IMG/VR virus record: IMGVR_UViG_3300028800_000023
Coordinates: 1 to 44,122 of that record
DNA: 44,122 nucleotides
Strand: one strand, 5' to 3'
Source of the DNA: a virus
The notes beneath the pieces were generated by a model, which saw only the letters and a program-made list of their open reading frames with translations, did no database searches and was not told the origin of the DNA. Within the stretch, counting starts at the first letter, position 1; each line of letters starts with the position of its first letter. Positions 1 through 43,831 of this stretch are shown piece by piece. The position numbers were made by a program, and so were the translations under genes.

Positions 1-127
1 AATTCATGGGTGGATTCTGCAGGCGTATGCGCCAAAGACGCTAAGTTTAAAAAAGGTCTCGCCGCAGGCGCTATATGCGGAGCAATTGTTTCTGCCGTTG
101 GTGCGAGCGCATCAGGAACAGTCAATA
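1..127. repeat. Terminal direct repeat (left copy), circular contig overlap
   Basis: These 127 bases are identical to 43996-44122. The reading frame of a lipoprotein gene continues perfectly through the joint, as expected for a circular or circularly permuted genome whose contig ends overlap. An overlap of exactly 127 bases matches a common maximal assembly k-mer, so it is probably an assembly overlap and not a biological terminal repeat. Confidence 0.95.
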
Positions 128-237
128 CTTCGATTAATTCGAAGTTTCCGGGCTGGAACTGTGACGCAACAAAACTGGTATCAGATTTATCAGCTCTGGC
201 TAATGCGGCATGTACTGTAGTATTTCCAACGCCGTAA
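1..237 (+). CDS. Phage lipoprotein, C-terminal part (gene starts at 43828)
   Basis: This is the 3' part of a gene that begins at 43828. Joined across the 127-base overlap it encodes 134 residues. The part seen here carries a small-residue-rich hydrophobic stretch (GLAAGAICGAIVSAVGASAS), long enough for a membrane helix, then a polar tail with two cysteines. A GTG at 10 could be mistaken for a start but has no ribosome binding site and is internal. It is followed after 47 bases by the endolysin gene, so the protein is placed in a lysis cassette. A lipobox plus a second hydrophobic segment is the general architecture of unimolecular spanins, but the hydrophobic segment is not C-terminal, so that role is a guess. 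Confidence 0.85.
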   Translation, partial: NSWVDSAGVCAKDAKFKKGLAAGAICGAIVSAVGASASGTVNTSINSKFPGWNCDATKLVSDLSALANAACTVVFPTP

Positions 238-665: not shown

Positions 666-1829
666 TCAACCGCCTTTTTCGATAATCTCCCAATTCACTG
701 TTGAAGTAGTATCGGCAGCACCGCATTTAAAACCAAAACTGGTGCCTGCAGTTTTTGAAGACTCATATACCGGCCCCGTTGGTGCACCGCTGTGATTAAT
801 AAGGGATAAGAAAATCCTACTGGTAGCGGTAACGGAGGAATTAGTCACAACCACTTCGGACGAACCGTTACAAGTATCTGTTCCGGAACCTTGTTTTGCA
901 TTTGATCCTTCTGCAACTTGTAATCCTTGGCCAACGGTCTGAACATTGATTGACCCGTTAGTGGTAAAAAGAATGGTGTGACCGAACCCACCAGTTTCCA
1001 TCAAAATACTGGTATTACTGTCAAGGACTAACCCATATGTGGTGTTGTTAGAAAAGCCCCCCCAGTGAGAAGAGCCTCCATTGTCGTAGAAAATTCTAAT
1101 TCCACGTTGACCAGATGTTGCTGTGCTGAAAAGAGAAAGATATCCCTTGCCGGTGCTTGTATCTAAAGATCCCCAAACAGACCCGTCAGCTTCTTCAAAT
1201 TGAAGAAGGCCCGCATTTGCGATCCCTCCTCCAGATCCACCAGTAGCTTTTAAATTTAAATTCCCGCCAACAGCACCAGTACTTGCTCCTGCATGAAGAT
1301 TTAAGTCCGCTCCTGTTCCGGAAACTGCAGGAGCGCCAAAATCTGTGACGTTAAGAGCAACTGTCCCAAGATTACTCAACGTCGTATTCGCTCCCGAGCT
1401 TCCCGCGGCAGCGCTTGTCCAGGTAGTTCCATTTGAAGTAAGAATATTTCCATTCGAACCAGGAGCTACGAAAATAGGACTTCCAGCACCATTTCCTAGA
1501 ATGACATTATTCGTAGTTAAAGTAGAAAGTCCCGTCCCACCGTAAACAGTACTCACAGGAGTTCCGCGCCATTCCCCACTTGCGATAGTTCCGACAGTAG
1601 TGAGACTCGAACTTCCTGCTAAAGGAGAAAGACCGGCACCGCTTACCGTAGTTGTTCCTCCTGCTGAAGAAACAGAAATATTAGCCGAGCCTGAAATGAT
1701 CTGTGCTGCAGTCGTATCCCCGTTAATAGAAGAAATACCTCCTCCGCTCCCGCCATTCACGACAGGAGTTAACCACGCATATGCTTGAAGAGAAAAAACA
1801 AGAATTAGGAAAATTGAAATTTTATTCAT
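666..1829 (-). CDS. Exported tail-fibre-like protein with signal peptide
   Basis: The 387-aa protein begins with a clear Sec signal peptide (MNKISIFLILVFSLQAYA, then WLTPVV) followed by a glycine-rich linker GGSGGG. The next segment has fibre modules familiar from phage tail fibres and chaperone-tethered fibres: GTIASGEWRGTPV, YGGTGLSTLTTNNVILGNG, and NGNILTSNGTTW. The C-terminal half is Ser/Thr/Gly-rich beta sequence with no motif I recognise, ending in a region with paired cysteines (CNGSSEV, FKCGAAD). It is the last gene of a five-gene operon; its start overlaps the stop of the upstream gene by four bases. Phage tail fibres normally have no signal peptide, so this product is predicted to leave the cytoplasm. 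The target receptor is unknown. Confidence 0.85.
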   Translation of the reverse strand: MNKISIFLILVFSLQAYAWLTPVVNGGSGGGISSINGDTTAAQIISGSANISVSSAGGTTTVSGAGLSPLAGSSSLTTVGTIASGEWRGTPVSTVYGGTGLSTLTTNNVILGNGAGSPIFVAPGSNGNILTSNGTTWTSAAAGSSGANTTLSNLGTVALNVTDFGAPAVSGTGADLNLHAGASTGAVGGNLNLKATGGSGGGIANAGLLQFEEADGSVWGSLDTSTGKGYLSLFSTATSGQRGIRIFYDNGGSSHWGGFSNNTTYGLVLDSNTSILMETGGFGHTILFTTNGSINVQTVGQGLQVAEGSNAKQGSGTDTCNGSSEVVVTNSSVTATSRIFLSLINHSGAPTGPVYESSKTAGTSFGFKCGAADTTSTVNWEIIEKGG

Positions 1830-2332
1830 TGATATTGTCCGCCTGTTGCAATTGTTCCAGCACTGTTACCTGGAAAATAGTTTATCCCTGCTCCGCCCGT
1901 TAATATCACTCCATTCACTGTAGAGGTGAATTTCGGTCCAGTAGCCGAGCCGGAAAAAATATCGTTGAAGGCCTGAGTTAGCCCTCCATATTGAGCTTGT
2001 GCAAACCCACCAGGAAATGCTGGCGTTCGAGTTCCTCCACTTCCTGAATCACCAATGAGAACGGGTAAGTCGGATCCTACGAGCAGACGTTGAGTTGGTG
2101 CGCCTGAACCGGAAGTTGGCCCGATTAATGTGTAATGTGCTGAAGTACTGGCCAAACTAAAATCCAAAGATCCTGCCGCTGTGATAGGAGACCCAGCAAC
2201 CGACATGAAACTGGGAGTTGTTGCCGCGACTGAAGTGACGGTACCTGAACCACTACTCCCACTCACAACAGGAGTTAACCACGCATCCGCGGAAAGAGAG
2301 AAAAGAAGAATAAATAGAAATACAAATTTCAT
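1826..2332 (-). CDS. Exported fibre-like protein with signal peptide
   Basis: The 168-aa protein has an N-terminal signal peptide (MKFVFLFILLFSLSADA, then WLTPVVSGSSGSG), closely parallel to its downstream neighbour; a 19-base stretch at the cleavage junction is identical in both genes. After the linker comes a phage-fibre module (VTSVAATTPSFMSVAGSP, then SLDFSLAS), followed by a short beta-rich tail. It lies in the same operon, overlapping the next start by four bases. Probably a short secreted fibre or adhesin subunit; function unknown. Confidence 0.82.
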   Translation of the reverse strand: MKFVFLFILLFSLSADAWLTPVVSGSSGSGTVTSVAATTPSFMSVAGSPITAAGSLDFSLASTSAHYTLIGPTSGSGAPTQRLLVGSDLPVLIGDSGSGGTRTPAFPGGFAQAQYGGLTQAFNDIFSGSATGPKFTSTVNGVILTGGAGINYFPGNSAGTIATGGQYQ

Positions 2333-2334
2333 AG

Positions 2335-2919
2335 TTAATCAAAAAGCTGGAACATTTGCCCGTTGATTGAAGATGCTGCCGTATAGGTGATAGTAACCTG
2401 TATGTAATCAATGCTAACGGAAGAGGTATTAGTGGCACTTTGATAGGACGCCACTACACCAAAATTACTTGCATTGATATCTGTTGCGGTCCACGATTGT
2501 CCCCACAAGTCAGAAACACTTCCAAACGTCTGCACGCTATCAGAGGGGTTGGATAACTGTTGATTAGAGGCGTTATTGTTCCCGCCAATCACACCGCCTT
2601 TTACCAGCTCTACGATGTTGCTAAAATAACTACCTCCGCCAGTGCCGTTCTTATGTCCATTGATGTTTACTGTAATGCCGTTGATCGTTGCTCCTGCTGG
2701 GATACTAAAACCATAATTACTACCTTGAAGGTAATGCGTATTATTACCGGCGGAAGAAGTAGCTGTTGCGTATACCCCATCCGCCAAAGTGATGTTTCCG
2801 GGATTTGTCCAAGTAAGCGTGCCGACGGCGCTGTTATCTGCACCAGTGCCTGCGTTATTAGGTCCCGCAGTTAGAGCAAAAAGATTTAGGGAAAATAAAA
2901 GAATTAAAAATATTTTCAT
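2335..2919 (-). CDS. Exported beta-rich protein with signal peptide
   Basis: The 194-aa protein starts at the ATG at 2919, which overlaps the upstream stop codon (TAATG). A longer in-frame start upstream is rejected because it would hide the signal peptide MKIFLILLFSLNLFA. The mature part resembles beta-sandwich modules in phage and secreted proteins: GTLTWTNPGNITLADGVYA, a GATINGITVNINGHK stretch and VSIDYIQVTITYT near the C-terminus. No catalytic motif is visible. The tight overlap with both neighbours puts it in the exported fibre operon. Confidence 0.8.
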   Translation of the reverse strand: MKIFLILLFSLNLFALTAGPNNAGTGADNSAVGTLTWTNPGNITLADGVYATATSSAGNNTHYLQGSNYGFSIPAGATINGITVNINGHKNGTGGGSYFSNIVELVKGGVIGGNNNASNQQLSNPSDSVQTFGSVSDLWGQSWTATDINASNFGVVASYQSATNTSSVSIDYIQVTITYTAASSINGQMFQLFD

Positions 2920-3905
2920 TAGAAACCCTTGGTGTAGGCAACTACGTCCCAAAATCCTGCAGTAGAGTTATAGATTGCTCCGATGTAATCTGTTTTTCCC
3001 GAAGCAGTTTGAGTTAACGTTGTAATGTCAGATCCAAACCTAAACCCTCCTGCGCTCGTATTCAATGCTGCCGTTCTTGACCCACCAGAAGCGTTAATAG
3101 AAATCACGATTTTCTGCCCTGATGTTGGATTTGAAGGAATTGCGATCGTAGGATTTTGCGTGGTAACCAAAGTAAAAACAGTTCCTAGGGAGGCGTCAAG
3201 AGCAGGAGTAGAGCCATCAGTAAGTGCTACGACAACAGCTTGCCCCGTTTTTTTCCAGGAAAAATTTCCAGAGCCATCATTTTCAAATCGGCTACCTGCG
3301 CCACCTTGGCTTGAAGGAAAACTCGTTGTAACGTTATTTATTTTTGTGATATTTCCTGTAAAAGATTTAATCCCCGCAAAAACTTGAGTAGTAGTGGAAA
3401 CGCCTCCTGGATTACTTCCATCCGCAGGTTGAAGTGTAATCGTTCCTGCGGAAATCCCCCCGCCATTAGAATTCGGAGAAGAACCAAAAGCTCCAAAAGA
3501 AACGGTGGCCTGTTTGGCATTTAATTGCGTTTGAATGGCGGATGTTACACCAGAAACATAGCCTAATTCAGTAGGGGTAACTGCGCTCGATGTGAGGGAT
3601 TTAGAACCATCTAAATAGGGAACAGTGGAAACACTTAAAGCCGAGAAAATCGGAGCACTTGAAAAAGTTTTCACCCCACCTAAAGTCTGTGTGCTTGCCG
3701 TTAATCCTCCTGGATTACTTCCATCCGCAGGCTGCAAAGTTAAAGTGGAACCCGAAATAGTCCCCCCATTTACATTGGGAGAGGAACCGAAAGTCCCCAT
3801 CGCGGAAACTCCTCCGCCGCCACCACTACTTCCGCCGGAACAAAACGGAGTAAGACACGCAGAAGCATTAAGAGAAAGTAATAATGTTAAAAGAAGTTTT
3901 TTCAT
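2919..3905 (-). CDS. Exported tail-fibre-like protein with internal duplication
   Basis: The 328-aa protein has a signal peptide (MKKLLLTLLLSLNASA) and then CLTPFCSGGSSGGGGG; the cysteine at the cleavage site could make it a lipoprotein (ASAC). Two copies of a module of about 46 residues follow (FGSSPN.NGG.IS, LQPADGSNPGG, FS/FT), repeating with a period of 101 residues. Between them lies TELGYVSGVTSAIQTQLNAK, a phrase common in phage and secreted bacterial fibres. The C-terminus (DASLGTVFTLVTTQN, NPTSGQKIVI, FGSDITTL, WDVVAYTKGF) is a typical phage fibre/tail end domain. It is part of the exported fibre operon, and its stop overlaps the next start. Confidence 0.85.
   Translation of the reverse strand: MKKLLLTLLLSLNASACLTPFCSGGSSGGGGGVSAMGTFGSSPNVNGGTISGSTLTLQPADGSNPGGLTASTQTLGGVKTFSSAPIFSALSVSTVPYLDGSKSLTSSAVTPTELGYVSGVTSAIQTQLNAKQATVSFGAFGSSPNSNGGGISAGTITLQPADGSNPGGVSTTTQVFAGIKSFTGNITKINNVTTSFPSSQGGAGSRFENDGSGNFSWKKTGQAVVVALTDGSTPALDASLGTVFTLVTTQNPTIAIPSNPTSGQKIVISINASGGSRTAALNTSAGGFRFGSDITTLTQTASGKTDYIGAIYNSTAGFWDVVAYTKGF
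3403..3428. repeat. 26-bp direct repeat, copy 1 (period 303 bp)
   Basis: The 26 bases here are identical to 3706-3731. The period of 303 bp equals 101 codons, so this is the DNA trace of a recent in-frame domain duplication encoding the repeated LQPADGSNPGG phrase of the fibre protein at 2919-3905. Confidence 0.9.
3706..3731. repeat. 26-bp direct repeat, copy 2
   Basis: Identical to 3403-3428; it encodes the first (N-terminal) copy of the repeated phrase in the fibre protein read on the minus strand. Confidence 0.9.
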
Positions 3906-4232
3906 TTACTGTCCTTGCATTAAAAGTACGCTCGAGACGTTTGGCGTTACAGTTGTAAGATAGACCGCATTCGACGGCGCGTGTAGAGGTTCGTAGTTTC
4001 CTCCCGCGGGAATCGGAATCCCTTGAGGACCTACCTGAACACCTGAAAAGTTTGCGTAAACGGTATTTGAACCGGTATTCACGATAAGAAGATAAGATCG
4101 TAAAGTGTTTTGAGGAAAAAACTGAGTGCTTACACCAGTAGCAACCCCAGAAATTACTGGGCCGTACATATAGAAATTCGCCCGTGCCATTCCCGTCACA
4201 AGTGAAAAAAGAATCAAGATATACTTCACCAT
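3906..4232 (-). CDS. Small exported protein with signal peptide
   Basis: The 108-aa protein has a signal peptide (MVKYILILFSLVTGMARA). The mature part resembles small phage virion/decoration proteins: LRSYLLIVNTGSNTVYANFSG, an IPAGGNYEPLHAP turn and NAVYL. Such modules without a leader are usual in phage structural operons. A good ribosome binding site (GGAGAAAAAC) precedes the ATG. It is the first gene of the exported operon and follows the neck terminator gene after 17 bases. Its role is unknown; it may be a surface or scaffolding partner of the fibres. Confidence 0.75.
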   Translation of the reverse strand: MVKYILILFSLVTGMARANFYMYGPVISGVATGVSTQFFPQNTLRSYLLIVNTGSNTVYANFSGVQVGPQGIPIPAGGNYEPLHAPSNAVYLTTVTPNVSSVLLMQGQ

Positions 4233-4249: not shown

Positions 4250-4825
4250 TTACGTAGTCCAGTTAAGTAAGTAGTCTTCGTCACCAATGACAGTATGAAT
4301 GCTGCCCGATGCTGATTGAATCGTCAAAATCGGATATACTCTTTGAATTTCTCTTCTTAAGAAAACGCTCATTATGACTCTATCGATAAAGCGCTCATTC
4401 ACCAAGTCGGGGATGTGTCGTAAGGGACTTACTTCGACAAAACCCATATTCGCATAGCGCAGAGCTTCTAAATTAGTTTGAATTTGAAATCCGTCTCGGA
4501 TTAACCCGGCAACCTCTAAAGCGTTTGGCCCGTAAATACTGCAGTTCACATCCAAAGTTTCATGCCGCTGATAAACGGAATTTCCCACGTCATCCACACC
4601 AACATAGGCATTTGCATCAGGAGCAGCAACATCGATTCCCATTGCAATCCAATTGACCGTCAGGTCCGGCTGCTTCGGAGGTTCCACTTGCCACTTGGGT
4701 CTCACCAATGTTCCGTCTAAACCCGATACGCCAACGATGACAGTCTGAACAAATTGAGTGAGGTTTAGACTCCTTGGAAGCGGAGTCGTAGACGTTGGAA
4801 GAATGTAGGGTTGCGGAAAGCTCAT
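4250..4825 (-). CDS. Phage neck/tail terminator protein (LIC_12616/gp12-like)
   Basis: The 191-aa protein matches in layout the neck terminator family found between head-completion genes and tails of myoviruses: LNLTQFVQTVIVGVSGLDGT, then VRPKWQ..PPKQP, and a conserved acidic middle (DVAAPDANAYVG, HETLDVNCSIYGPNA). The start at 4825 gives MSFPQPY and overlaps the upstream stop as ATGA; the ATG seven codons earlier is less likely. It would close the tail end or join tail to connector. The family assignment is from memory of conserved phrases. Confidence 0.7.
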   Translation of the reverse strand: MSFPQPYILPTSTTPLPRSLNLTQFVQTVIVGVSGLDGTLVRPKWQVEPPKQPDLTVNWIAMGIDVAAPDANAYVGVDDVGNSVYQRHETLDVNCSIYGPNALEVAGLIRDGFQIQTNLEALRYANMGFVEVSPLRHIPDLVNERFIDRVIMSVFLRREIQRVYPILTIQSASGSIHTVIGDEDYLLNWTT

Positions 4826-5187: not shown

Positions 5188-5678
5188 TAGTTTTCTCCTT
5201 TGACTACGTAGGTGATGGCATTTCTCATTTGACCTGTGACGATTAAAGCTTTTGTTCCTTTAAACCCTCGGGCTTCACGCGCATCTAGGGTTGCGGGCGA
5301 TGGTGCTTCAATCCCTTCTTGAGAATTGATAACTTTTTTAATGGATTGAGAAGCGATAATCCCGATACGGTTATACGCAGGCGATAAAGCCGAAACGCCT
5401 TTTGAGAGGGCGTCTACGGCAGCCTTCTTAAACTGCGCGATAATTTCGGGTTGAGCTTGTCGAATCCCGATTTCCATAACAGGCCGAGCGGGTATGTTAT
5501 TAATGGGAGAACCAAAATTATTAATAGCCAAAAGTGTTGCATTATTAATCATCGAGTCTTGCTTACGGTCTGTCGTCTCTTCAGGAATCCCCACCAAAAT
5601 GTCGTCCCGTTTAAACTTCGAAATGATTTTATTAAAATCACTCGTGAAGTCTTCCGTGACTGTAAGGGTGGGTTTCAT
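5187..5678 (-). CDS. Tail completion / virion morphogenesis protein (HK97 gp10-like)
   Basis: The 163-aa protein has the phrases of the HK97 gp10/phage morphogenesis group: ILVGIPEET near residue 27, NNATLLAINNFGSP, INNIPARPVMEIGI, and a C-terminal GFKGTKALIVTGQMRNAITYVV (the usual 'L..TG.+...I.+.V' ending). These proteins complete the tail end of the connector. It overlaps the DUF4054 gene upstream by four bases (ATGA), as part of the head-tail operon. Confidence 0.78.
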   Translation of the reverse strand: MKPTLTVTEDFTSDFNKIISKFKRDDILVGIPEETTDRKQDSMINNATLLAINNFGSPINNIPARPVMEIGIRQAQPEIIAQFKKAAVDALSKGVSALSPAYNRIGIIASQSIKKVINSQEGIEAPSPATLDAREARGFKGTKALIVTGQMRNAITYVVKGEN

Positions 5679-6064
5679 AGCTGGATCGCTCCTGCTCCGA
5701 AAATCCTGGCTAGATGAATGAATTGCTTCCCGTAGTTAGTGAGATTCCAGTATCCTGCATCTTTTTCAGCGGTGGAAACGGTATCGTAGCCGACCGTGAC
5801 TGAACCGACCGTCTTGGTGTTTGCGATTCCACCAGAAACGCCCGGAACTCCGCCCGTACTTGCGGCGGCCTGATTTTGCATGGATAGAGTTATCTCGTGG
5901 GCAACGTAAAGGCTTACACCATTCACCCAAGCGCGTTTCCAGATACACTCACGCACTTGAATAACAGCAAGTGTCACCCAGAAGTTAATCTGTTGATCGG
6001 GGTACTTTACTTCATCGGCGAATTCCGGAAAATTCGCTCGGAATAGGCCGATATCGAAAGTCAC
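5675..6064 (-). CDS. Head-tail adaptor, DUF4054 family
   Basis: The 129-aa protein begins MTFDIGLFRANFPEFADEVKYPDQQINFWVT; 'FR..FPEFAD...YPD..I..W' is the signature of DUF4054 phage adaptors. A second conserved block, LYVAHEITLSMQNQ, and a C-terminal NLTNYGKQFIHLARIFGAG also match. The protein would sit under the portal as the adaptor ring. It starts three bases after the upstream lysine-rich gene and is coupled by ATGA to the next gene. Confidence 0.85.
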   Translation of the reverse strand: MTFDIGLFRANFPEFADEVKYPDQQINFWVTLAVIQVRECIWKRAWVNGVSLYVAHEITLSMQNQAAASTGGVPGVSGGIANTKTVGSVTVGYDTVSTAEKDAGYWNLTNYGKQFIHLARIFGAGAIQL

Positions 6065-8058: not shown

Positions 8059-9402
8059 TTATTTCGCCGCGTAAAAGGCAGCGTTTTTCTTGTTGATATC
8101 TTCGGCACTCAATCCCCCCGATTTAGGGGTTGTAAGGGACGATTTCTGAATGTCGAAAGTTTTGGAAGAGCCAAACGCTTTTTTACGTTCACTCTTTAAA
8201 ATTTCGCTTACACCAATAAATACGGAGTTCACCAACGCTTCGTTTTTCGAATCCAGCGCTTTCCCGTCAGTAAAACGGTGAATGAGTTCTTTTCCGTCAG
8301 TTGTTGCATAACAGGCTTCAAGGGCTTTTACTTTCGCGTCTTTCCCTTTTGCTTTTAAACCAGGAGCTAAAATTTCAATACGGGAAGCAGCGTCACCAGT
8401 CATTTCGGATTCTTCTTCCATGTCGTCTTCGGAACCGACTGCGCCACCTTCAGAAGGCTCTGCGTCTTCGCTTTCTTCCTTTTCTTCGGATTCCTCTTCA
8501 TCATCTTTCTTTTCGCCTTCGGCATCCTTTGCCGCTTTTTCCATCATGGCGTCAATAAAGGCATCACGGGCATCCTGCTTCTTTTTCTTTTCTTCCTCTT
8601 CGGCATCTTTGGCCTTTACTTCAACAGGCTTTTCTTCGTCTTTAGCGACAACTTCAGCAGGAGCTGCTTGAGTTGGTGCAGTCGAAGCATCTTGAGGTTT
8701 CATGGATTCCAAAAGTGTTCCCATGTCTTTCATCATGCCGCACATTTTATCGTAAGCGGACATTTCACCATCTTTGGTTTTGCCTTTGGCTGGTTTTTCT
8801 TCAGCCTCAGAAACAAGTGCTTTCAGTTTTTCCATGAACGTCATTTTAATTCCCTTTCCTTTGTGTGCTGCTGCACTGTGGTCATTAATTGCATAGGATT
8901 GACCCGCTCGCCCTTCATCCACAAGAGCCACGTGATTTCCTATAATACCTTTTTGAATTCCCCGACCGATTCCTGTTTCGATGTATTCCGCATCATAACC
9001 GCAGGAAACTTCTCGAACACCTGCTTTTACTTTGGCAATTGCATCAGCATCAGTAATCAGAATGTCGGCCATCAAATCGCTTTCGTTCGCACCAGTTCCA
9101 CGGCGAACGTTTTGAATGATTCCGCAAGTAAGTGTCTTCCAGTTCTTTGGGTCAACGAAATCATTCGGATGATAAATTGTAAAAGACTTTCCCTGAAAAG
9201 ATGCAATTGTTTCAGGACGAAAAACTTCAGCGGCATCACGCGTGACAATAACTTTTCCAGAGGCATCCGGTGGAATTGGTGTTTCGCCCGCCGCGTAAAC
9301 CATTTCACCAGTGCGCGCGATAGGAACATCCAAACAAATAAGATAGCCTTCTGGCGTTTCTGAAATGCGCTCTGATAGCTGAGATGTCGCGAAAAATTTC
9401 AT
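8059..9402 (-). CDS. DUF2213 prohead protease/scaffold fusion
   Basis: The 447-aa protein starts with a DUF2213 domain of about 180 residues: TPEGYLICLDVPIARTGEMVY, VFRPETIASFQGKSFTIYHP, VREVSCGYDAEY and GIIGNHVALVDEGRAG, the last being the protease-like core. From about 200 to 330 it is highly charged (long runs of E, K and D), a likely coiled scaffold segment. The C-terminal 100 residues form a second folded domain. Cutting itself and the scaffold during capsid maturation is the family role. It lies directly before the cement and capsid genes. Confidence 0.85.
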   Translation of the reverse strand: MKFFATSQLSERISETPEGYLICLDVPIARTGEMVYAAGETPIPPDASGKVIVTRDAAEVFRPETIASFQGKSFTIYHPNDFVDPKNWKTLTCGIIQNVRRGTGANESDLMADILITDADAIAKVKAGVREVSCGYDAEYIETGIGRGIQKGIIGNHVALVDEGRAGQSYAINDHSAAAHKGKGIKMTFMEKLKALVSEAEEKPAKGKTKDGEMSAYDKMCGMMKDMGTLLESMKPQDASTAPTQAAPAEVVAKDEEKPVEVKAKDAEEEEKKKKQDARDAFIDAMMEKAAKDAEGEKKDDEEESEEKEESEDAEPSEGGAVGSEDDMEEESEMTGDAASRIEILAPGLKAKGKDAKVKALEACYATTDGKELIHRFTDGKALDSKNEALVNSVFIGVSEILKSERKKAFGSSKTFDIQKSSLTTPKSGGLSAEDINKKNAAFYAAK

Positions 9403-9410
9403 TTATATTT

Positions 9411-10169
9411 TTATTGGAGCGATTGAGCTACCGGGGTTAAAACGAACGATAGCGAAATTAAAGAATTCGCTGCTGGGGCAACAGGCACGTACGCCGTGTT
9501 TGCTCCGCTCGTTGCTCCTAAAGTGGTAAGAATTAATTGTCCACCCGTGTTGTCTGCTGTCGCGACATTTAAACTCGGTCCACCAACAACTTCGATATGA
9601 CTAATCCCCGTTCCCGAAGGAGAAGGGGTAACAACGACGCCAGTTCCGGAACCTGCAGAAGCAGTGATCGCGGTGAAAGCTTGGCTGATTGTTGGTGTAA
9701 AATTGGTTGGAAGCCCTAAAGTCTGCCATTGGGTTGCTGTAGTTGTTCCCACATCCTTAATCACATAGACCTGGCCTAACGAAAGACCCGAAGAAACGTT
9801 TGTTGTAGAAGAGGAGCCAGGAGATCCAAGAGCATAGGAATCAGCTAGCCAGCCGTTATAACCTTTAGAGAATTTTACAATGATGAATCCAACTTTAGGA
9901 TTCGGATTCCCGGTTGCTGCGGTAGAATTGGTGTGCATATAAACTGCAGCGACTTTATCGCTTCCACCAACTGTTTCTAAACCTCTGATACCCAGACCAT
10001 TTGAGTTTGCCGGGTCGACGATGAATTTAACGCTGATGGCGCTTGAACCGCCAGTCACGAAGTTATTGGAAACTTCACCGAATTGATTTTTGAGATAAAG
10101 AGAAGGAACTGTTGCCGCTGAAAGTTCTAAACCTAAAACGAGTGCAAGGAACAGTAAGGTTTTTTTCAT
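9411..10169 (-). CDS. Exported virion-like protein encoded among head genes
   Basis: The 252-aa protein opens with a good signal peptide (MKKTLLFLALVLGLELSA). The mature part has a module seen in many phage structural proteins: LGQVYVIKDVGTTTATQWQTLGLP...SQAFTA, and a C-terminal NSLISLSFVLTP. It sits between the MuF-like gene and the DUF2213 gene, where decoration proteins are common, but a Sec leader on a head protein is unexpected. A 93-base gap with a candidate -10 box separates it from the upstream gene, so it may be transcribed separately. Confidence 0.8.
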   Translation of the reverse strand: MKKTLLFLALVLGLELSAATVPSLYLKNQFGEVSNNFVTGGSSAISVKFIVDPANSNGLGIRGLETVGGSDKVAAVYMHTNSTAATGNPNPKVGFIIVKFSKGYNGWLADSYALGSPGSSSTTNVSSGLSLGQVYVIKDVGTTTATQWQTLGLPTNFTPTISQAFTAITASAGSGTGVVVTPSPSGTGISHIEVVGGPSLNVATADNTGGQLILTTLGATSGANTAYVPVAPAANSLISLSFVLTPVAQSLQ

Positions 10170-14338: not shown

Positions 14339-14748
14339 ACGTCTTCCTCTATTTCCAAAAGCGCTTGGCGTGCTATCTCGGGAGGAATAACTTTCACCTG
14401 GTGTTGAACGTCAACCAGACCATTGATGTTTAAGTTCTTAGGAATTTCCCCGACAATTCTAGCAGCAAAGCGTTCAAGGACCGAAGGGTCACCGTCTTTG
14501 ATTGCCCTAAGAATTGCAGTCGCAACTCCTACTTCTAATGCCGAGGTATCCGGGTTCGTCGCTAAATCTTTTAACGCCTGAACATTTCCAGTCAGAGCGG
14601 TTTCAATTACTTTTTGTAAAGAGTGAAGGGTTAATTTACGAAGTGCTTTTTGTTCCGGTGATAAAGGCGGACGACCTTTCGGATTTCCTGAAGGCGCACC
14701 TTCTTTAAACTGATGTGGTTTTAAATGGTCTGTTCGTCTTTTAGCCAT
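14335..14748 (-). CDS. Terminase small subunit-like protein (DUF5681-type N-terminus)
   Basis: The 137-aa protein begins with a basic stretch, HQFKEGAPSGNPKGRPPLSPEQKALRK, the 'F..G.SGNP.GRP' signature of DUF5681 proteins that occur next to large terminases. The middle is helical, and IVGEIPKNLNINGLVDVQHQV resembles the C-terminal part of small terminases. It is placed just upstream of the zinc-finger-like gene and TerL. It would recognise phage DNA for packaging; assignment rests on position and N-terminal motif. Confidence 0.78.
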   Translation of the reverse strand: MAKRRTDHLKPHQFKEGAPSGNPKGRPPLSPEQKALRKLTLHSLQKVIETALTGNVQALKDLATNPDTSALEVGVATAILRAIKDGDPSVLERFAARIVGEIPKNLNINGLVDVQHQVKVIPPEIARQALLEIEEDV

Positions 14749-15922
14749 GACGGTTTTTAGACAGTTTAACCGCTTTTTTACCCGTAAACTTTTCCCAGCG
14801 GTCTATGATGACTTGGCAGTACTGTGGGTCTATTTCCATGCCGTAGCATTTACGGTTTGTTTTCTCGCAAGCGATGAGGGTGGTTCCGGAACCGAGATAG
14901 AGGTCTACTATTAGTTTGGCGTCTTTACCCCATTTTTCAAAGAACCATTCACAAAGCTGTGCGGGTTTTTGGGTTGGGTGTACTTTTTCTTTGTCGTGCC
15001 CAAATGTCCCGCGCCCAAAGATTCGAGCCATAACTTTCTTGTGTTTAGCCTTAGACCAGCACATCTCATAGGCGTTACCAATCATCTTATCTGCTGATTC
15101 ATTCCCGTTGTTTTTATCCCAAACAATCATGGTGCCTAATGGAAGCTTGTCACAATAATAGTCGCCGCCCCACATAAAAATCTCTTTGCAGTATTCAAAA
15201 AAACTTAGAATGTGTGCTGGATTAAATTCGCAGTCATCGCCCTGGACATTTCTATATGCTTTACCACCCTGTTTTGGATTTGTGGTGCTAGAGTTTCTTG
15301 AACCCGTTAATACGGAATAGTCCGTATCCAAATTCATCCCATACGGCGGGTCCGTAAACACCATATCGGCTTTCTCGCCGTTCATTAGTCGTACAACATC
15401 TTGTGTAGAAGTACTATCCCCACACAAAAGACGATGATTCCCAAGGCTGAACAAGCCGCCCCGTACAATAGAAGTACTTCGGGTTTTAGGCACACTGTCT
15501 GCATCACACAATCCTTCATTCGTTTCTTCTTTGAAAAATAGTTCACTCGAATCAAACATCGTTAAATCGAGATCGAAGTTCACATCTCTTAATTCAGTAA
15601 ACCACTCGGCGAGGATTTCTTTATCCCATTCCCCGCCGCCTTTGTTGGCCGCGATATTTGCAGCCTTTTCTTTTTCTTCACTCCAATTTACTTCACGGTA
15701 AGGAAACTCATGCCCCTGCCAGTGGACTTTTCCTTGAGTTATTTTCGCATCCTTAAATATTTTCTGTCTTTGATGCCCACCAATTAATCTGTCTGTTTTT
15801 CGATTGTAAACAAACCCGTCAAGACTTCCGAATTCTTTTAAGGATTTCTCGAGCTGAGAAAGTTTCTCCTCAGTAATTTTACGAGGATTTTTGGGATTAG
15901 GTTTTAACTGGCTGAACTTCAC
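14741..15922 (-). CDS. ParB-like nuclease domain / DNA methyltransferase fusion
   Basis: The 393-aa protein starts with a ParB/Srx-like domain (MKFSQLKPNPKNPRKITEE, RLIGGHQRQK; residues 1-100). The rest is an amino-methyltransferase: motif IV DPPY at 191-194 (MVFTDPPYGMN), then the AdoMet motif LGSGTT near 345 and CYGMEIDPQYCQVIIDRW. Catalytic motif before AdoMet motif indicates the beta class, N6-adenine or N4-cytosine. Start is GTG. It overlaps the TerS start by eight bases. It may protect phage DNA from host restriction; target sequence is unknown. Confidence 0.88.
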   Translation of the reverse strand: MKFSQLKPNPKNPRKITEEKLSQLEKSLKEFGSLDGFVYNRKTDRLIGGHQRQKIFKDAKITQGKVHWQGHEFPYREVNWSEEKEKAANIAANKGGGEWDKEILAEWFTELRDVNFDLDLTMFDSSELFFKEETNEGLCDADSVPKTRSTSIVRGGLFSLGNHRLLCGDSTSTQDVVRLMNGEKADMVFTDPPYGMNLDTDYSVLTGSRNSSTTNPKQGGKAYRNVQGDDCEFNPAHILSFFEYCKEIFMWGGDYYCDKLPLGTMIVWDKNNGNESADKMIGNAYEMCWSKAKHKKVMARIFGRGTFGHDKEKVHPTQKPAQLCEWFFEKWGKDAKLIVDLYLGSGTTLIACEKTNRKCYGMEIDPQYCQVIIDRWEKFTGKKAVKLSKNRHG

Positions 15923-29710: not shown

Positions 29711-30775
29711 TTATTGATAAATTTCTTTTACGATAATTAATCCGCTACCGCCAGCACCGCCTGCCGCGTCCGATCCAGTTCCTGCAGTGCCCGCAGCACC
29801 GACAACATAGGCATATTGAGAAAGCGGGGAAGTAATGTACGCATCTATATAACCGCCTGCACTTCCGCCATTTCCTGAAACGGTTGTATTTGTTGCACCA
29901 CTTCCGCCGGATCCTGTGTTAGTTGCTGCCGCGACTCCTGCTTGAGCGCCTGATTTATAAACTGAACCGCCCGCGCCACCAAAAGGAGATGAGCCCCCTG
30001 CGCCACCTAAAAGCGTTGCGGTACCCGCATTTCCTGTTCCTCCAGTTAATGCTATTCCCGTCGGTCCGGTTCCTAATGAAGCCGCACCGCCGGCCGAAGG
30101 TTGAGAACCTGCTGTTCCACCTCCTCCGCCACTTGCAGTTAATAAAGATGTTCCAAAAGAAGAGTCGCCCCCATTTCCGCCATTATGTGTTGCTGCGGGA
30201 TCTACACCACAACCGCCGCCGCCTCCACCAACCATTTGAACTTCGATAGCGATAGGACTTCTGACAGCATAGAAAGTGATTGTTGAATCACCTGTACCGC
30301 CTGATTTCGTGAGAGTTCCCGAAACCGAAGGAGCGCCATTTCCTGTCATATAAAGAATTGTTCCGGCAGAAATTGTAGCGAGCACGGTAAAAGTATTTCC
30401 GTTATTTGTATAGGTTGCTGTGGCTGTCGCATTTCCAGAAGCGATCATGAAAATTCGAGTAATTGAATGAGTGCCGGAACCTGAAGCGTACTTTGTAACC
30501 TTTGGTGGGAAAGCCTGCAGAGCGGCTGTAAGTTGGCCTAGAAAGGAAGCATTAACTCCGCCGTCTAAAACGTCTGCTCCAAGAATATTTGAAACAAGTT
30601 GAGCAACCTGGCTTGTTATGAAAGTTCCTTGACGAAGAGCCTTATTATTAAAGGCACTACTCGCAACTCCTGGTTGGTTTCCTAAAGGCCTATCTGTGTC
30701 GGCAAGATAAGCCGCTTGTGATTCGACATTAGCGCCGCCACCTGTTGCAAAGGGTAAAAAATCATTTGTTGGCAT
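29711..30775 (-). CDS. Tail fibre/adhesin with glycine-rich domain
   Basis: The 354-aa protein has an N-terminal base (MPTNDFLPFATGGGANVESQ, YLADTDRPLGNQPGVASSAFNNKALRQGTFITSQVAQLVSNI) typical of baseplate-anchored fibres. From about residue 185 to 345 it is dominated by glycine (QMVGGGGGGCG, SGGGGGTAGSQ, GGAGGSSPFGGAGGS), ending in SGLIIVKEIYQ. Glycine-rich tip domains of this kind form polyglycine-II sandwiches in receptor-binding proteins. It lies right after the DUF2612 baseplate gene and has no signal peptide, so it is the best candidate for the true virion adhesin. Confidence 0.85.
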   Translation of the reverse strand: MPTNDFLPFATGGGANVESQAAYLADTDRPLGNQPGVASSAFNNKALRQGTFITSQVAQLVSNILGADVLDGGVNASFLGQLTAALQAFPPKVTKYASGSGTHSITRIFMIASGNATATATYTNNGNTFTVLATISAGTILYMTGNGAPSVSGTLTKSGGTGDSTITFYAVRSPIAIEVQMVGGGGGGCGVDPAATHNGGNGGDSSFGTSLLTASGGGGGTAGSQPSAGGAASLGTGPTGIALTGGTGNAGTATLLGGAGGSSPFGGAGGSVYKSGAQAGVAAATNTGSGGSGATNTTVSGNGGSAGGYIDAYITSPLSQYAYVVGAAGTAGTGSDAAGGAGGSGLIIVKEIYQ

Positions 30776-32662: not shown

Positions 32663-33097
32663 TTAAAAGTACGGAACGTAGTGAACCGTCCCGTTAATTT
32701 TCATTTGAACGCAACCCGTAGCTCCTGCCAGACTTCCGCAATTAGTATAGGGTGCTGAAACCGTATTTAAATTATGTTGAACTGGAGTCGACCCAAGTGT
32801 GGCGATTCCCGTGATAGTTCCTGTTACCGTCGTAAGCGTTGCTGTCCCCGTTGCATTTTGGAAATTAACCGTCGGGATCGTAAGTGTTCCACTTAAGTTA
32901 GGGCTTTGAAGACTTGGAACAGAATAAAGCTGAGAAATCGGCAATTGTCCTGTCACATTGGGAGATCCAAAATGAACAAAAGGCACTGTATCGGTCGAAC
33001 TAACTTGGCTTCCCGTATATTGGGGCAGAGTAGAAATCGGAACTTCGGCGATTAGAAAGGTAGGTGTTAAAGCTAAAAGGAGAAAAAGTTTTTTCAT
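32663..33097 (-). CDS. Exported small protein within the baseplate operon
   Basis: The 144-aa protein has a good signal peptide (MKKLFLLLALTPTFLIA). The mature part has phage fibre-like phrases (ISTLPQYTGSQVSSTDTVPFV, LSGTLTIPTVNF, GTATLTTVTGTITGIATL) and two cysteines near the end (NCGSLAGATGCVQMKINGTVHYVPYF). Its start overlaps the stop of the upstream baseplate gene by four bases. A Sec leader inside a virion assembly operon is unexpected and parallels the exported fibre operon at 666-4232. Confidence 0.8.
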   Translation of the reverse strand: MKKLFLLLALTPTFLIAEVPISTLPQYTGSQVSSTDTVPFVHFGSPNVTGQLPISQLYSVPSLQSPNLSGTLTIPTVNFQNATGTATLTTVTGTITGIATLGSTPVQHNLNTVSAPYTNCGSLAGATGCVQMKINGTVHYVPYF

Positions 33098-38558: not shown

Positions 38559-40703
38559 TTAGCGATTTACATCCACCAAAATGTCGACGGATTGAATGGC
38601 GCCCGCAAGCTTGATAGCGACTTGGATGGGCGGGCTTTTCCGCGCGTCCCTGTCACTTTGCGATTGAAGAGCGACACTTTGAGCAAAAATGTAGTAGCCG
38701 AATTTTAAGAACTGGCCAGTTTCAATTTGACCGAAGCTGGGACCGTTCCAAGTTCCCGGAGCAACTAGGCCGTTGTTTACGGCTTGGCTACATACTGCAC
38801 CGATTGCGTTTGTGAGCTGATTTACGCCCGCATCGGTTTGAGGAATCTTAGTGGTGCTTGTGTAGAGCACATTATAAACGGCAGTTTGAATTGCGTTTTG
38901 AAGCCAGTCTGTCCCTTGAATTTCGTCAAAGTATGCAGGTCCCGCCATCACGCCTTGTTGGATGATTGTCGTATCGTTCACATAATCAACAAACACGTTA
39001 CAGCGTTTTGCAATGAGAGTACTCGCTTCTTCCTGAGTTAAGTCTTCACCAACCACGCCAGGTTCTTGTTTGAACATCAAAGTAATCGTGGTGTTCTGGG
39101 CTGTGAAATCAACTGTGAAAGCGCGTCCGAAGAAGGAGGCAATTGCTGCGACATTGTTTCCGCTGTACTGATTGAAAGACTGTAAATACCCGCCAGCTTT
39201 CATTCGGCTTGCAAGATCGTTCGAAACTTCAGCACTGAGCACGTTCGTATTGGTGATTGTTACACCAAACACACGGGTAAGGTCTAAGGCTTCGACAAAA
39301 TCACAGACCGCGATATTCTGGTCATCCGTTGGCTGAACGGAAGCTTGGAACATAATTCCATACCAGGCTGCCGACATGTTTTCCAAAACGGTGACACAGG
39401 CAACCGGGCTTTCGGCATTAAATCCAGGAATAAGAGCTTGAGAAGTTGAAGCGGTTAGCATTAGCTGAGCAGAAATATCTGTTCCGCTTCCTGCTGCTGT
39501 TGCATAACCAACACTCGATGCGACAGCTCCACCAGTAAGGTTTCCGCCGGAAAGATCGATATGTGTACTCGACTTTGCGAGAGTAAAAGAATTTCCTGCA
39601 GTTCCTGCCAGTAGGAAAGTGACCGTTACCACGTTTGCCGCAGTCGAATAGGAAGCCTGGTCAATATTGGAGTCTACCGAGGCTGCCAAGAAAGTTTGAA
39701 GATTCGCGGCTGTTGCGTTTGCCGTAGGTCCGACAAGAACTTGGTTACCTGTTGGATTAACCGCAACGAAAGTGATCGCTGTTCCATTGACTGTCAAAGT
39801 ATCTGGTGCAACTCCGCCAGCTAAATCGCCTGAACCAGAAACTGCGATATTCGCGCCGCTCTTAGTTAAGCCATAAGAATTTCCCGCTGTCCCATAAACT
39901 TTTGCAGTAATCGTCGTGACAAGTCCTAGGGTGTTATAGGTACAGGCAGAAAGATTTACGTCTGCGGAAGCCGATAAAAAGGCTTGAAGATTCGCGATTG
40001 TCGCATTGTCATCAGCACCAATTTTTACTTGGTTGCCTGAAGGCGTTCCCGTCACAAAAGTGACCGTCGTTCCCTTAATGGTGACTGTATCCGCGTTTGA
40101 AGGTTGTCCGGAAAGTGTGATTGTTCCGGAAGCCTGAGCACCATAACTTGGATTTGTGGTTAAAGTGATTGTCCCAGAAGCCTGAACACCTGCGCCTGTA
40201 GAATTGCTCGAGATAACGAAATTTGTTCCGTTCCAAACGCATGTTCCTGCGCCCGAAAGAGCGGTTGTGATAATTGTTGCAACTGCGTTTAGATTCGCGG
40301 CTGCTGTAAAATCAAGACCGGTTAAAGTGTGAACCGTGCCGTCAATCGAAATGACAAAGCTTCCTGCGCTAATTGAAGTCCATGCAGAAATTGCAGATTC
40401 TCCCGCAGTTAAGATCCCACCATCGTTTTCTGCTTCACTGGCAGTTCTAAACCATCGGCCGATCATAAGAGTCGCGGGTGAAGGATTTTGTCCGAAATAA
40501 AGAACGGCTGCCTGATATTCAGGAGCGTTTACTCCGAATTCCGCTGCCACTTCGTCTATCGTTGAATACGTTCGAAATCTTTGAACGCCATTAATGACGT
40601 TTGAGTCACCGGCAATCATCAAAGTTCCAAAAGACCGAACCGCAGCCGCGAGAGGACTGAGGCTAACGGTAACACGCACGATGTTCGAGACGGATAAGCT
40701 CAT
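38559..40703 (-). CDS. Tail sheath protein (DUF3383-like) with large insertion
   Basis: The 714-aa protein has the DUF3383 sheath ends: SVSNIVRVTVSLSPLAAAVRSFGTLMIAG and EVAAEFGVNAPEYQAAVLYFGQNPSPATLMIGRW at the start, and TITLMFKQEPGVVGEDLTQEEAS, RCNVFVDYVNDTTIIQQGVMA, then KSPPIQVAIKLAGAIQSVDILVDVNR at the end. Between about 199 and 392 it carries two tandem copies of a beta-rich module (VTIKGTTVTFV / LTVNGTAITFV ... GTAGNS). Sheaths of this family are usually about 450-520 aa, so the insert is an embellishment likely on the outside of the tail. Confidence 0.9.
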   Translation of the reverse strand: MSLSVSNIVRVTVSLSPLAAAVRSFGTLMIAGDSNVINGVQRFRTYSTIDEVAAEFGVNAPEYQAAVLYFGQNPSPATLMIGRWFRTASEAENDGGILTAGESAISAWTSISAGSFVISIDGTVHTLTGLDFTAAANLNAVATIITTALSGAGTCVWNGTNFVISSNSTGAGVQASGTITLTTNPSYGAQASGTITLSGQPSNADTVTIKGTTVTFVTGTPSGNQVKIGADDNATIANLQAFLSASADVNLSACTYNTLGLVTTITAKVYGTAGNSYGLTKSGANIAVSGSGDLAGGVAPDTLTVNGTAITFVAVNPTGNQVLVGPTANATAANLQTFLAASVDSNIDQASYSTAANVVTVTFLLAGTAGNSFTLAKSSTHIDLSGGNLTGGAVASSVGYATAAGSGTDISAQLMLTASTSQALIPGFNAESPVACVTVLENMSAAWYGIMFQASVQPTDDQNIAVCDFVEALDLTRVFGVTITNTNVLSAEVSNDLASRMKAGGYLQSFNQYSGNNVAAIASFFGRAFTVDFTAQNTTITLMFKQEPGVVGEDLTQEEASTLIAKRCNVFVDYVNDTTIIQQGVMAGPAYFDEIQGTDWLQNAIQTAVYNVLYTSTTKIPQTDAGVNQLTNAIGAVCSQAVNNGLVAPGTWNGPSFGQIETGQFLKFGYYIFAQSVALQSQSDRDARKSPPIQVAIKLAGAIQSVDILVDVNR
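39528..40109 (-). repeat. Two tandem inserted domains in the tail sheath
   Basis: Copy 1 (residues about 199-297) and copy 2 (about 298-392) align through TVTIKGTTVTFV/TLTVNGTAITFV, GNQVKIGADDNATIANLQAFL/GNQVLVGPTANATAANLQTFL and GTAGNSYGLTKS/GTAGNSFTLAKS. They split the sheath phrase just before SSVGYATAAGSGTDIS. The copies differ considerably, so the duplication is old. Confidence 0.85.
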
Positions 40704-41053: not shown

Positions 41054-41461
41054 ATGATCCAGTCTCAGAAATTCAGCATTTCGAAATCAGGCGTAGTGCG
41101 TGGCGGCGAAGCTTCTTATTCTGCAGATACCGACACGGGCGAAATCAATTACAACTACGAAATTGACAAGCCTTGGCCTCTTTCTCCCATCACGGGTGCT
41201 GATAAATATTCCGCGAACCCCCAAGAATTACTTTCTTCTTTCTTTAAAAATGTTGGGGACAAACTCACCATAGGTCCTGTGACTTTCACAGCAACTGTGA
41301 TTGTCCCTGGTGAGACGGATGTTTCAATTACAATCGAAGGAAAAAATATCCAGGGGTCCGCAGTTTTGGATACCTCTGGGACGTATTTCAAAATTAGAAG
41401 TCTTACGGCAACTGGAAGTGTTTACGGCTTTACAGTCAATCTGCAGTTAACCCCTGAATAA
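41054..41461 (+). CDS. Hypothetical protein, 135 aa
   Basis: The protein (MIQSQKFSISKSGVVRGGEA, with VTFTATVIVPGETDVSITIEG and SVYGFTVNLQLTPE) is beta-rich with no leader and no known motif. It begins a three- or four-gene plus-strand block and is followed after 12 bases by a secreted protein gene. Function unknown. Confidence 0.7.
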   Translation: MIQSQKFSISKSGVVRGGEASYSADTDTGEINYNYEIDKPWPLSPITGADKYSANPQELLSSFFKNVGDKLTIGPVTFTATVIVPGETDVSITIEGKNIQGSAVLDTSGTYFKIRSLTATGSVYGFTVNLQLTPE

Positions 41462-41473
41462 AGGAAAACTAAA

Positions 41474-42133
41474 ATGAAAATAGTACTCATGTTAGCTCTG
41501 CTAGCATTGCCTCTCTATGCTCACGAAAATACCGAGGAGTATGGAAAAGCCTATGCTAAAAAATATTCAAACGCGATTAACACCTTGGATGATTTGAAAT
41601 CCCGAACAGACGAAGCCCTCGACTTCGCGTTTAAAGTCGCTGTCGTCAATCTTCGCGATAAAGGTTTTTACGCGGATGCCGATCAGATTGAATTTGAATG
41701 GAATACCGAATGGCGGGGCGCCATTTTTACTCGTGACATCGGGCATATTTATTTAAGTTCTTGGTTAGAAAACACCTACGATAAAATCGAGAAGGCCTTA
41801 GGTGTTGAAACCTGCAAAGCCCTTCACATTTCTATAATCAAAACGGTGAACTGCTCTTTACCAGTTCTTTTTGGAGGATGTAGTTGGGACATGACTGGCG
41901 TTCTTGAATCGCGCCGTCAAGATTACATTGATCATTTCGCGCATGGTGCTGTGTACAAAGGCCTTCTTCCTGAAGTCACGTGGGCCGGTATTACAGTAGG
42001 TTGCTGGGCAGGCACGGCAGGCGTCGGGGCATTTCTATGCTCCATTGCAGCAAGCGGTGCTGAATGGTTTGCCGCTGATATCGTAGGACCGCCTCTTGGT
42101 GGAAAACTCTATGACGCAATCTGTGGACAATAA
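41474..42133 (+). CDS. Secreted hypothetical protein with signal peptide
   Basis: The 219-aa protein has a signal peptide (MKIVLMLALLALPLYA, then HEN). The mature region starts helical (KAYAKKYSNAINTLDDLKSRTDEALDF), has five cysteines, and ends with a hydrophobic, Gly/Ala-rich stretch (TWAGITVGCWAGTAGVGAFLC, SIAASGAEWF) that may be membrane-active. No family is recognised. A binding site AAAGGAAAACTAAA precedes the ATG. It shares a short accessory block with the papain-like protease. Confidence 0.72.
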   Translation: MKIVLMLALLALPLYAHENTEEYGKAYAKKYSNAINTLDDLKSRTDEALDFAFKVAVVNLRDKGFYADADQIEFEWNTEWRGAIFTRDIGHIYLSSWLENTYDKIEKALGVETCKALHISIIKTVNCSLPVLFGGCSWDMTGVLESRRQDYIDHFAHGAVYKGLLPEVTWAGITVGCWAGTAGVGAFLCSIAASGAEWFAADIVGPPLGGKLYDAICGQ

Positions 42134-42296: not shown

Positions 42297-42496
42297 AAAT
42301 CCTCTGCCTTCGACAAGAAGTCGAGATAAAAACCTGGCGTGAACAATCCCGCAAAGCTTCAAAACTTTTCCTTCACCTACTTCATGAATACGTAGAAGAC
42401 GAATGCCTTTGCTGTTCGGAAGATAACTACCATTGCTTACCTTGCCGAATTTCTGACTGGCAAAATCAATATGAAATTCTTAGAAAGAAAAAGTAA
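42263..42496 (+). CDS. Small cysteine-rich protein, 77 aa
   Basis: A GTG at 42263, nine bases after GGAG, opens a protein with a helical first half (LRQEVEIKTWREQSRKASKL) and a cysteine-rich second half (DECLCCSEDNYHCLPCRI) that resembles a zinc-binding knuckle. It overlaps the previous small gene and ends 17 bases into the convergent protease gene. No family recalled. Confidence 0.55.
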   Translation: MPQDPKTHSNLEILCLRQEVEIKTWREQSRKASKLFLHLLHEYVEDECLCCSEDNYHCLPCRISDWQNQYEILRKKK

Positions 42497-43400
42497 AGAA
42501 ATCTAGGGCAGCTTTTAACATTTCTAAAACCTTAAAAAGAAATGGTGTAGGCACGTCGACTTGTTTGGGTAAGGTCAAATCATAGTAAAGGGCTTCTGTT
42601 GCAATTGCGTCGCAACGTTTTCCCTTTTTGTTTGTTGCTTTAATTCGGATGTAACCCTTTTCTCCCCATCCAGGTCCCCACGAATTCTTGATAATGTAAT
42701 ACCCTACTCCGTTAGGAAGGTTTCCGGCTAAATCAAAATCGCATTTTCCTTCACAAGAATAACCCACCAATTCCACCATGTGGTCGATAGATGTAGAAGA
42801 GCAATTCGAATAAACGCCGCTTTGATAATTTTGAAAACCGTCATCCGCAGCAACTTCAGTAGCCAAGGGCTTTTTAAGCTGAGAAATGACGTAGGCGATG
42901 TCTTTGAAAGAAGGTCCTGACGCTGAACCCAACATCCGGTATGCCACGCCGCTCGCGGCAACGGGACCTTTTTTACAAGACGTTTGGTGAGCCGTGTAGG
43001 GCTGAAAGTTATAAAGAGGCGGACCCATTTTATCAATCATGTATTTCGCTGCATCAAAATCCCCACCGTTACAACCGGACATGTCTTTCGCGCAATTAAG
43101 AAGGTACATGAAAGAAAGACGCCCGGGGTCTTTTAGACCTGTCGTGATATAGGTATTTCGCAAAGTGTCGGTAAGACTGAAATCCCAGCAACTTCCGCAC
43201 TGCCCTTGGTCTTCTACTTGAGAAAGTTGTGGAATAAGAGAGAACTCGTTTGGGATAGAAACATTTACCCCAGTGAAAGAAACCTGCATTTCAGATTGCA
43301 AAAAGATGTTTGATTTTCTTTTAAGCCCTTTGGCGTACTTTGGGTGATGGTAACCGAAAGCAACTTGGGATAAGATTAGAAAAGCAACAAGGAAGCGCAT
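42480..43400 (-). CDS. Secreted papain-like (C1A) cysteine protease
   Basis: The 306-aa protein has a signal peptide (MRFLVAFLILSQVAFG) and a complete C1A catalytic set: oxyanion Q65 and nucleophile C71 in DQGQCGSCWDFS, the CNGGDFDAAKYM motif near 110, H207 in SIDHMVELVGY and N239 in YYIIKNSWGPGWGEKGYIRI. Several cysteine pairs suggest disulphides. The stretch before the catalytic domain (about 17-50) is too short for a normal I29 inhibitor prodomain. It would act outside the cytoplasm. Complete papain-family enzymes with leaders are unusual in phages. It is transcribed alone, between two plus-strand blocks. Confidence 0.9.
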   Translation of the reverse strand: MRFLVAFLILSQVAFGYHHPKYAKGLKRKSNIFLQSEMQVSFTGVNVSIPNEFSLIPQLSQVEDQGQCGSCWDFSLTDTLRNTYITTGLKDPGRLSFMYLLNCAKDMSGCNGGDFDAAKYMIDKMGPPLYNFQPYTAHQTSCKKGPVAASGVAYRMLGSASGPSFKDIAYVISQLKKPLATEVAADDGFQNYQSGVYSNCSSTSIDHMVELVGYSCEGKCDFDLAGNLPNGVGYYIIKNSWGPGWGEKGYIRIKATNKKGKRCDAIATEALYYDLTLPKQVDVPTPFLFKVLEMLKAALDFFTFSF

Positions 43401-43513: not shown

Positions 43514-43831
43514 ATGAACGATAAATTGAAAGATTTAATCAAAGGATTGTCGGACGCAGGAATCTTTGCGTCAGATGTTTCGGGCGGATTTTCTTTTAAA
43601 GAAATCAATGAGCTCGTGCAACTTTCCCAAGACGTTTCACTTCTGGTAAAAGAAGCCCCTGATTTAAAAGCGCAATATTTAGCTCTGGACGATGCGTCTC
43701 GCGCAGATCTTCATGCGTATGTCGCGTCTCTTCAGGACTTTCCAGCTAACGCTTCTGTCGACGCGTTCATTAAAAAAATTCTTGAAATTGCTGTCGCAGC
43801 GTCTGCGCCGGTAGAAGAGGCGGTAAAATGA
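43514..43831 (+). CDS. Hypothetical protein of lysis block, 105 aa
   Basis: The protein (MNDKLKDLIKGLSDAGIFAS, then SFKEINELVQLSQDVSLLVKEAPDLKAQYLALDDASRADLHAYVASLQDF, and an Ala/Val-rich end) is predicted helical and acidic with no transmembrane segment. AAAAAGGAAAAACT precedes the ATG. The stop overlaps the lipoprotein start as ATGA. It resembles small tail or holin-associated phage proteins, but I cannot name it. Confidence 0.7.
   Translation: MNDKLKDLIKGLSDAGIFASDVSGGFSFKEINELVQLSQDVSLLVKEAPDLKAQYLALDDASRADLHAYVASLQDFPANASVDAFIKKILEIAVAASAPVEEAVK

Follow-up and report, generated by a model that had tools for sequence, protein, structure and literature searches.

The assembly of tailed phages is generally considered an entirely cytoplasmic process, and we know of no head fibres that are made with signal peptides. 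PblA and PblB are phage tail proteins that serve as adhesins and are not known to have a signal peptide, and Llp and Cor are small receptor-masking phage proteins that are exported to the envelope and are not fibres. In Bdellovibrio bacteriovorus, all 21 mosaic adhesive trimer (MAT) fibres carry a conserved domain of ~130 aa after the signal peptide (PMC10769870). A leader on fibres that related viruses make leaderless is unusual for virus fibres, and a literature search for Sec-exported fibres of tailed phages found no description of them, which is weak evidence of novelty since most subscription papers and preprints lay outside its scope. In this context we describe a cassette of five leader-bearing genes in an uncultivated virus record, and compare it with related phages in which similar domains occur with and without a leader.

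The stretch of DNA analysed here, which we call the window, spans all 44,122 bases of IMG/VR record IMGVR_UViG_3300028800_000023. It has a 127-base terminal repeat at its ends, so the genome is probably complete and circularly assembled. The gene set is that of a contractile-tailed phage (myovirus), with TerL, portal, a MuF-like protein, a head protease, a major capsid protein of the DUF2184 type and neck genes, together with tail sheath, tube, tape measure, baseplate and tail fibre genes. A gene at 14741-15922 (minus strand) combines a ParB-like N-terminal part with a DNA methyltransferase C-terminal part. When a genome collection was searched for the host, the sole match was a 39-kb phage-like contig in a Nitrospirota MAG, which we do not trust as host evidence.

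The cassette consists of five consecutive and tightly packed minus-strand ORFs (4232-3906, 3905-2919, 2919-2335, 2332-1826 and 1829-666), just as the original prediction had described it, and neighbouring genes share 1 or 4 nt, adjoin directly or stand 2 nt apart. A clear Shine-Dalgarno sequence (AGGAG) is present before gene 1 only, and genes 2-5 look translationally coupled. Gene 1 (3906-4232) encodes a small beta protein of 108 aa belonging to a family with the pattern RSYLLIVNxGS...IPAGGNYEP, gene 2 (2919-3905) a 328-aa fibre, gene 3 (2335-2919) a 194-aa protein with no family match, gene 4 (1826-2332) a 168-aa fibre-like protein and gene 5 (666-1829) a 387-aa fibre. Next to the cassette lies the neck/tail terminator (4250-4825, minus strand; PF23961, E 2.9e-28), which borders a site that is variable among relatives. 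The other border of this site in relatives is the tail sheath (38559-40703 in the window, minus strand; phrog_205, E 8e-110), and in the window the site has widened still more, since lysis genes and others separate the cassette from the sheath.

All five proteins begin with a leader of Sec type, as had been predicted: a short, positively charged n-region is followed by a hydrophobic core and a site that resembles A-x-A. The predicted cleavage falls between MVKYILILFSLVTGMARA and NF in gene 1, between MKKLLLTLLLSLNASA and CLTP in gene 2, between MKIFLILLFSLNLFA and LTAG in gene 3, between MKFVFLFILLFSLSADA and WLTP in gene 4, and between MNKISIFLILVFSLQAYA and WLTP in gene 5. Likewise, the mature start (W/C)LTP followed by a Gly/Ser linker is indeed common to three of the five; a leaderless counterpart of this LTP N-terminus (WLTP/CLTP) was sought and not found. 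Exported receptor-masking lipoproteins of the Llp/Cor type would have a lipobox ([LVI][ASTVI][GAS]C) where the leader ends. Cysteine at position +1 occurs only in 2919-3905, where it follows ASA and does not form a canonical lipobox; the other four proteins have no such residue. Leaders were called with a simple home-made predictor of n-, h- and c-regions, which yielded 4 calls among 813 core structural genes of relatives, i.e. a background of ~0.5%, three of these four being the N-terminus of the sheath, and none among seven baseplate-attached tail fibres. Leaders of the cassette type very probably export their proteins through Sec.

The bodies of the proteins had been described as mostly tail-fibre-like, which is borne out for 666-1829, 2919-3905 and 1826-2332, all of which contain phage-fibre modules, and not for 2335-2919 and 3906-4232, which gave no match of known function. 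In 666-1829, K1-lyase_C (PF24146) occupies residues 316-383 at the C-terminus (E 4.4e-11). The protein encoded by 2919-3905 matches a PHROG annotated 'virion structural protein', and its last 104 aa are 55% identical to a minor tail protein of Streptomyces phage Kromp. A sequence search of the PDB with these two largest cassette proteins returned no match. Residues 30-92 of 1826-2332 are 46% identical to a leader-bearing fibre of 1268 aa in contig L092. Homologues of 3906-4232 were found with a leader in L092, L125, L129, L096 and L177 and without one in a podovirus-like contig (L181), and tblastn of the L125 homologue against cultured phages gave no match. An unrelated phage, contig L005, has a leaderless fibre cluster directly after its putative major capsid gene, which includes relatives of two window proteins: a 602-aa fibre with 56% identity over 243 aa to 2919-3905, and a 226-aa protein with 38% identity over 208 aa to 9411-10169, a gene outside the cassette that is discussed below. 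This arrangement suggests that both modules are virion fibres when leaderless, the assignment of leaderless homologues to the virion being based on gene position and similarity-based annotation.

At least two leader-bearing genes at structural sites had been left out of the original prediction, namely 9411-10169 and 32663-33097. The first (9411-10169, minus strand) lies between the MuF-like and protease genes, a position that is taken in Edwardsiella phage ZHS by a gene annotated as head fibre, and its predicted cleavage falls between LSA and ATVPSLYLKNQFGE. Proteins at this site in relatives share the start (Y)PSLVLKNQFGE and then diverge, with total lengths from 70 to ~830 aa; among distinct examples, 16 carry a leader and 11 do not. 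In 12 of the 15 scored leader-bearing proteins the predicted cleavage site is 7-11 residues ahead of NQFGE, and in 10 of the 11 leaderless ones the initiator Met is 7-10 residues ahead of it. Moreover, the NQFGE segment is 52% identical among leader-bearing proteins with unrelated bodies, as conserved as elsewhere, compared with 7% for random windows. This spacing and conservation indicate that the N-terminus of the mature protein is a transferable module which is constrained with or without a leader. Head-fibre or decoration features of this kind, i.e. the position between MuF and protease and the conserved N-terminal segment, are found in 9411-10169 only and in none of the five cassette genes. 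The structure predicted for the head-site family was of poor quality (pLDDT 69), and a fold search with it found no useful match, and tblastn of leader-bearing and leaderless head proteins against cultured phages found none either. One contig (L108) has tandem head-site proteins (356-2860 and 2941-3600), both with a leader and the NQFGE motif, one of them 834 aa long as called.

The cassette itself occupies the site between terminator and sheath, which we followed through relatives collected by their neck terminator (query 4250-4825) and major capsid protein. Four states were found at this site: it is empty, it holds a protein of ~118 aa without a leader, it holds the same protein with a leader, or it holds a multi-gene island of leader-bearing proteins. 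Alignment of the ~118-aa proteins shows the leader simply prefixed to the common domain. Multi-gene islands occur in the window, L092/L093, L125 and L129; that of L092/L093 encodes leader-bearing proteins of 105, 1268 and 264 aa, and the second gene of the L129 island has its predicted boundary between SANA and YLTPIGAG, an echo of the WLTP/CLTP of the window. The small neck-site protein of relatives was modelled confidently as a beta-sandwich (pLDDT 89), for which a fold search gave good matches only to uncharacterised phage proteins and no PDB match below E 0.001. Among the cultured dwarf myoviruses with annotation that we examined, none was seen to have an extra gene between the presumed terminator and sheath, and tblastn of leader-bearing and leaderless neck proteins against cultured phages was without a match. 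Two further observations concern single contigs: a leader-bearing neck-site protein (L101, 12171-12957) has an inserted domain which by eye resembles an insert in the tail sheath proteins of this lineage, and the leader-bearing island of L125 includes a leaderless 323-aa protein (8666-9637) that appears glycosyltransferase-like by eye.

Leader state has changed repeatedly at both sites. The neck protein requires at least six changes on a tree built from capsid and terminator proteins, and well-supported branches force four of these. A second tree, of capsid, protease and terminator, was inferred by a quick method; on it the head site requires at least seven changes, six of them forced, and the neck site, in a smaller scored set, at least four. 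These counts are of changes in either direction and do not tell gain from loss. Unpaired cysteine is as a rule disfavoured in exported proteins. At the head site, mature proteins with a leader have 0.42 cysteines per 100 aa versus 1.10 without (permutation p 0.00015), and at the neck site 0.72 versus 1.91 (p 0.0095). The number of cysteines is even in 15 of the 16 head-site proteins that have a leader. The same holds for all seven window proteins that have a leader and are either fibres or encoded at structural sites; the mature parts of 2919-3905 and 666-1829 have two cysteines each. When relatedness was corrected for by independent pairs, the head site kept the direction (4.7 vs 0.5 of 6 pairs) at a level that is not significant (median p 0.125), and the neck site offered too few pairs for the test. 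The cysteine pattern is thus good, not conclusive, evidence that the leader-bearing proteins traverse an oxidising compartment. The export of a set of phage fibres, which was the central claim of the original prediction, gains support from the homologues with and without a leader, the preserved mature N-termini, the cysteine depletion and, as a control, the leaderless core fibres.

The canonical tail fibre of the window is a separate gene (29711-30775, minus strand; phrog_11303, E 4e-24) that is leaderless here and in all seven relatives. The idea that the cassette encodes the baseplate-attached tail fibre was rejected, since that role belongs to 29711-30775, whose N-terminal segment (NDFLPFATGGGANVESQ...) is absent from the leader-bearing cassette proteins. 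Within the baseplate gene cluster there is a leader-bearing fibre-like protein (32663-33097, minus strand), which has a leader-bearing homologue at the same place in L125, between two wedge genes, and no tblastn match in cultured phages. In four near-complete relatives, further proteins with leaders, 261 to 1215 aa long, are encoded downstream of the tail fibre, which itself has none; in one of these relatives the 1215-aa fibre has a Gly-rich tip like that of tail fibres, and is plausibly a receptor binder.

Other genes of the window carry leaders as well. A papain-family cysteine protease with a Sec leader (42480-43400, minus strand; PF00112, E 3e-40) has relatives without a called leader in L125, where it lies between terminator and sheath, and in G001, and gave no tblastn match against cultured phages. 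The leader-bearing 219-aa protein of 41474-42133 (plus strand) has as its neighbour 41054-41461 (plus strand), and homologues of both stand side by side in L125. Finally, a 134-aa gene spanning the circular junction (43828-44122 plus 1-237, plus strand) has a lipoprotein-like leader, LFVSC followed by SKTN, and adjoins the presumed endolysin at 285-665.

What these leaders are for can be read in several ways. We tentatively favour, at somewhat less than even confidence, the reading that the cassette encodes accessory fibres of virion type which are exported by Sec and bind to particles at or after lysis. The wider proposal, that this myovirus lineage sends accessory virion fibres through the host Sec system for periplasmic maturation and mounts them on finished particles at lysis, is put forward with a little more reserve. 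The favoured reading has its basis in the sequences: leaders of cleavable type precede fibre or decoration domains which related phages make leaderless. The infected cell would export the fibre proteins across the inner membrane through Sec; the leader would be removed in the periplasm, where the fibres would fold, possibly as trimers, as K1-lyase_C suggests. Lysis would then bring the exported fibres together with particles built in the cytoplasm, to which they might bind by the same N-terminal segments as the leaderless versions, becoming fibres of the head or neck that are added late and make adhesion more diverse. We know of no precedent for fibre binding after lysis. Since the same N-terminal segment occurs with and without a leader at structural sites, both forms most likely reach the same target, the particle, and its retention in the exported proteins points more to the virion than to the host periplasm or surface as their destination. 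Against this stands the fact that the window phage also exports a protein that is not a fibre, the papain-family protease, which fits envelope functions.

The original prediction had placed the exported fibres in the host periplasm or at its surface, for receptor masking or adhesion to prey. On such a model they could work at the host envelope or in the surrounding medium rather than on virions, masking receptors against superinfection or on debris, altering the adhesion of infected cells, or being released as free adhesins. This is a serious rival, if a somewhat less likely one than the favoured reading. It accommodates the evidence for export equally well, and the further exported genes (the protease, 41474-42133 and the lipoprotein-like gene), the leader-bearing 1215-aa fibre with its tail-fibre-like tip in one relative and the room for lipidation left by the CLTP of 2919-3905 all accord with it. 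However, the genes are located in structural clusters, no signal for translocation across or anchoring in the outer membrane was seen, and an envelope role would not predict that an N-terminal segment common to leaderless proteins stays conserved after export. That the leaders are unused or only partly used, the proteins being built into virions inside the cytoplasm and keeping a hydrophobic N-terminus that might serve as an anchor, is unlikely: although the position among structural genes and the existence of leaderless homologues would suit such a course, the leaderless homologues start where the A-x-A boundary lies, cysteines are depleted and even in number, and core fibres never carry a leader. 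Hydrophobic N-termini that merely resemble signal peptides by chance are scarcely credible, there being nothing in their favour beyond the limits of a home-made predictor, and are ruled out by five calls in a row here, recurring in independent phages, against the low background in core genes.

If the preferred reading of Sec-routed virion fibres is true, tailed phages would have a second, extracytoplasmic stage of assembly. If the same fibre domains have gained and lost signal peptides time and again, then either the phage obtains some of its virion surface outside the cytoplasm, or virion fibre modules have repeatedly been turned into exported adhesins. Leader-bearing and leaderless proteins occur as natural pairs, and a distant relative, phi1422, is in culture, so that the question can be put to a direct test.

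Among known systems, the Bdellovibrio phage phi1422, a dwarf myovirus of phiPLPE type (PMC3391216), resembles the window in its distantly related structural genes and in having leader-bearing proteins downstream of a leaderless tail fibre (gp67), namely gp68 (1430-3274, 614 aa) and gp75 (5299-5811, 170 aa), both deposited as hypothetical proteins; the main text of its genome paper does not mention signal peptides (PMC3391216). Unlike the window, phi1422 has no gene between its neck and sheath genes, and homologues of the five cassette genes were not detected in it. With the head (capsid) fibres and decoration proteins known from tailed phages (e.g. phage 7-7-1, PMC12796354), 9411-10169 and its relatives share a conserved N-terminal segment and variable bodies, but 9411-10169, a candidate head fibre, has a signal peptide, with which no head fibre is known to be made. 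As in PblA and PblB, phage structural proteins would serve as adhesins, here with signal peptides; as with Llp and Cor, phage proteins would be sent to the envelope, here fibres rather than small envelope proteins. The suggested kinship with Bdellovibrio MAT fibres holds at most as a functional likeness. Membership was rejected in a comparison with the published description of the post-leader domain: the ~130-aa domain is absent, and the cassette proteins have only the leader, LTP and Gly/Ser linker in common before their bodies diverge at once. Nor was a C-terminal S74 domain matched in the window, or a characterised NS74 tip found through the PDB for 666-1829 and 2919-3905. The cassette is phage-encoded and linked to structural genes, and its proteins in the window are much shorter than MAT fibres (relatives reach 1268 aa). 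Like MAT fibres (PMC10769870), it comprises several related proteins per genome, all five with a signal peptide before a mosaic of phage-fibre-like modules and probably trimeric, and either reading, virion or adhesin, is relevant to the route by which fibre modules of phages come to stand on bacterial surfaces, and to where MAT-like fibres came from.
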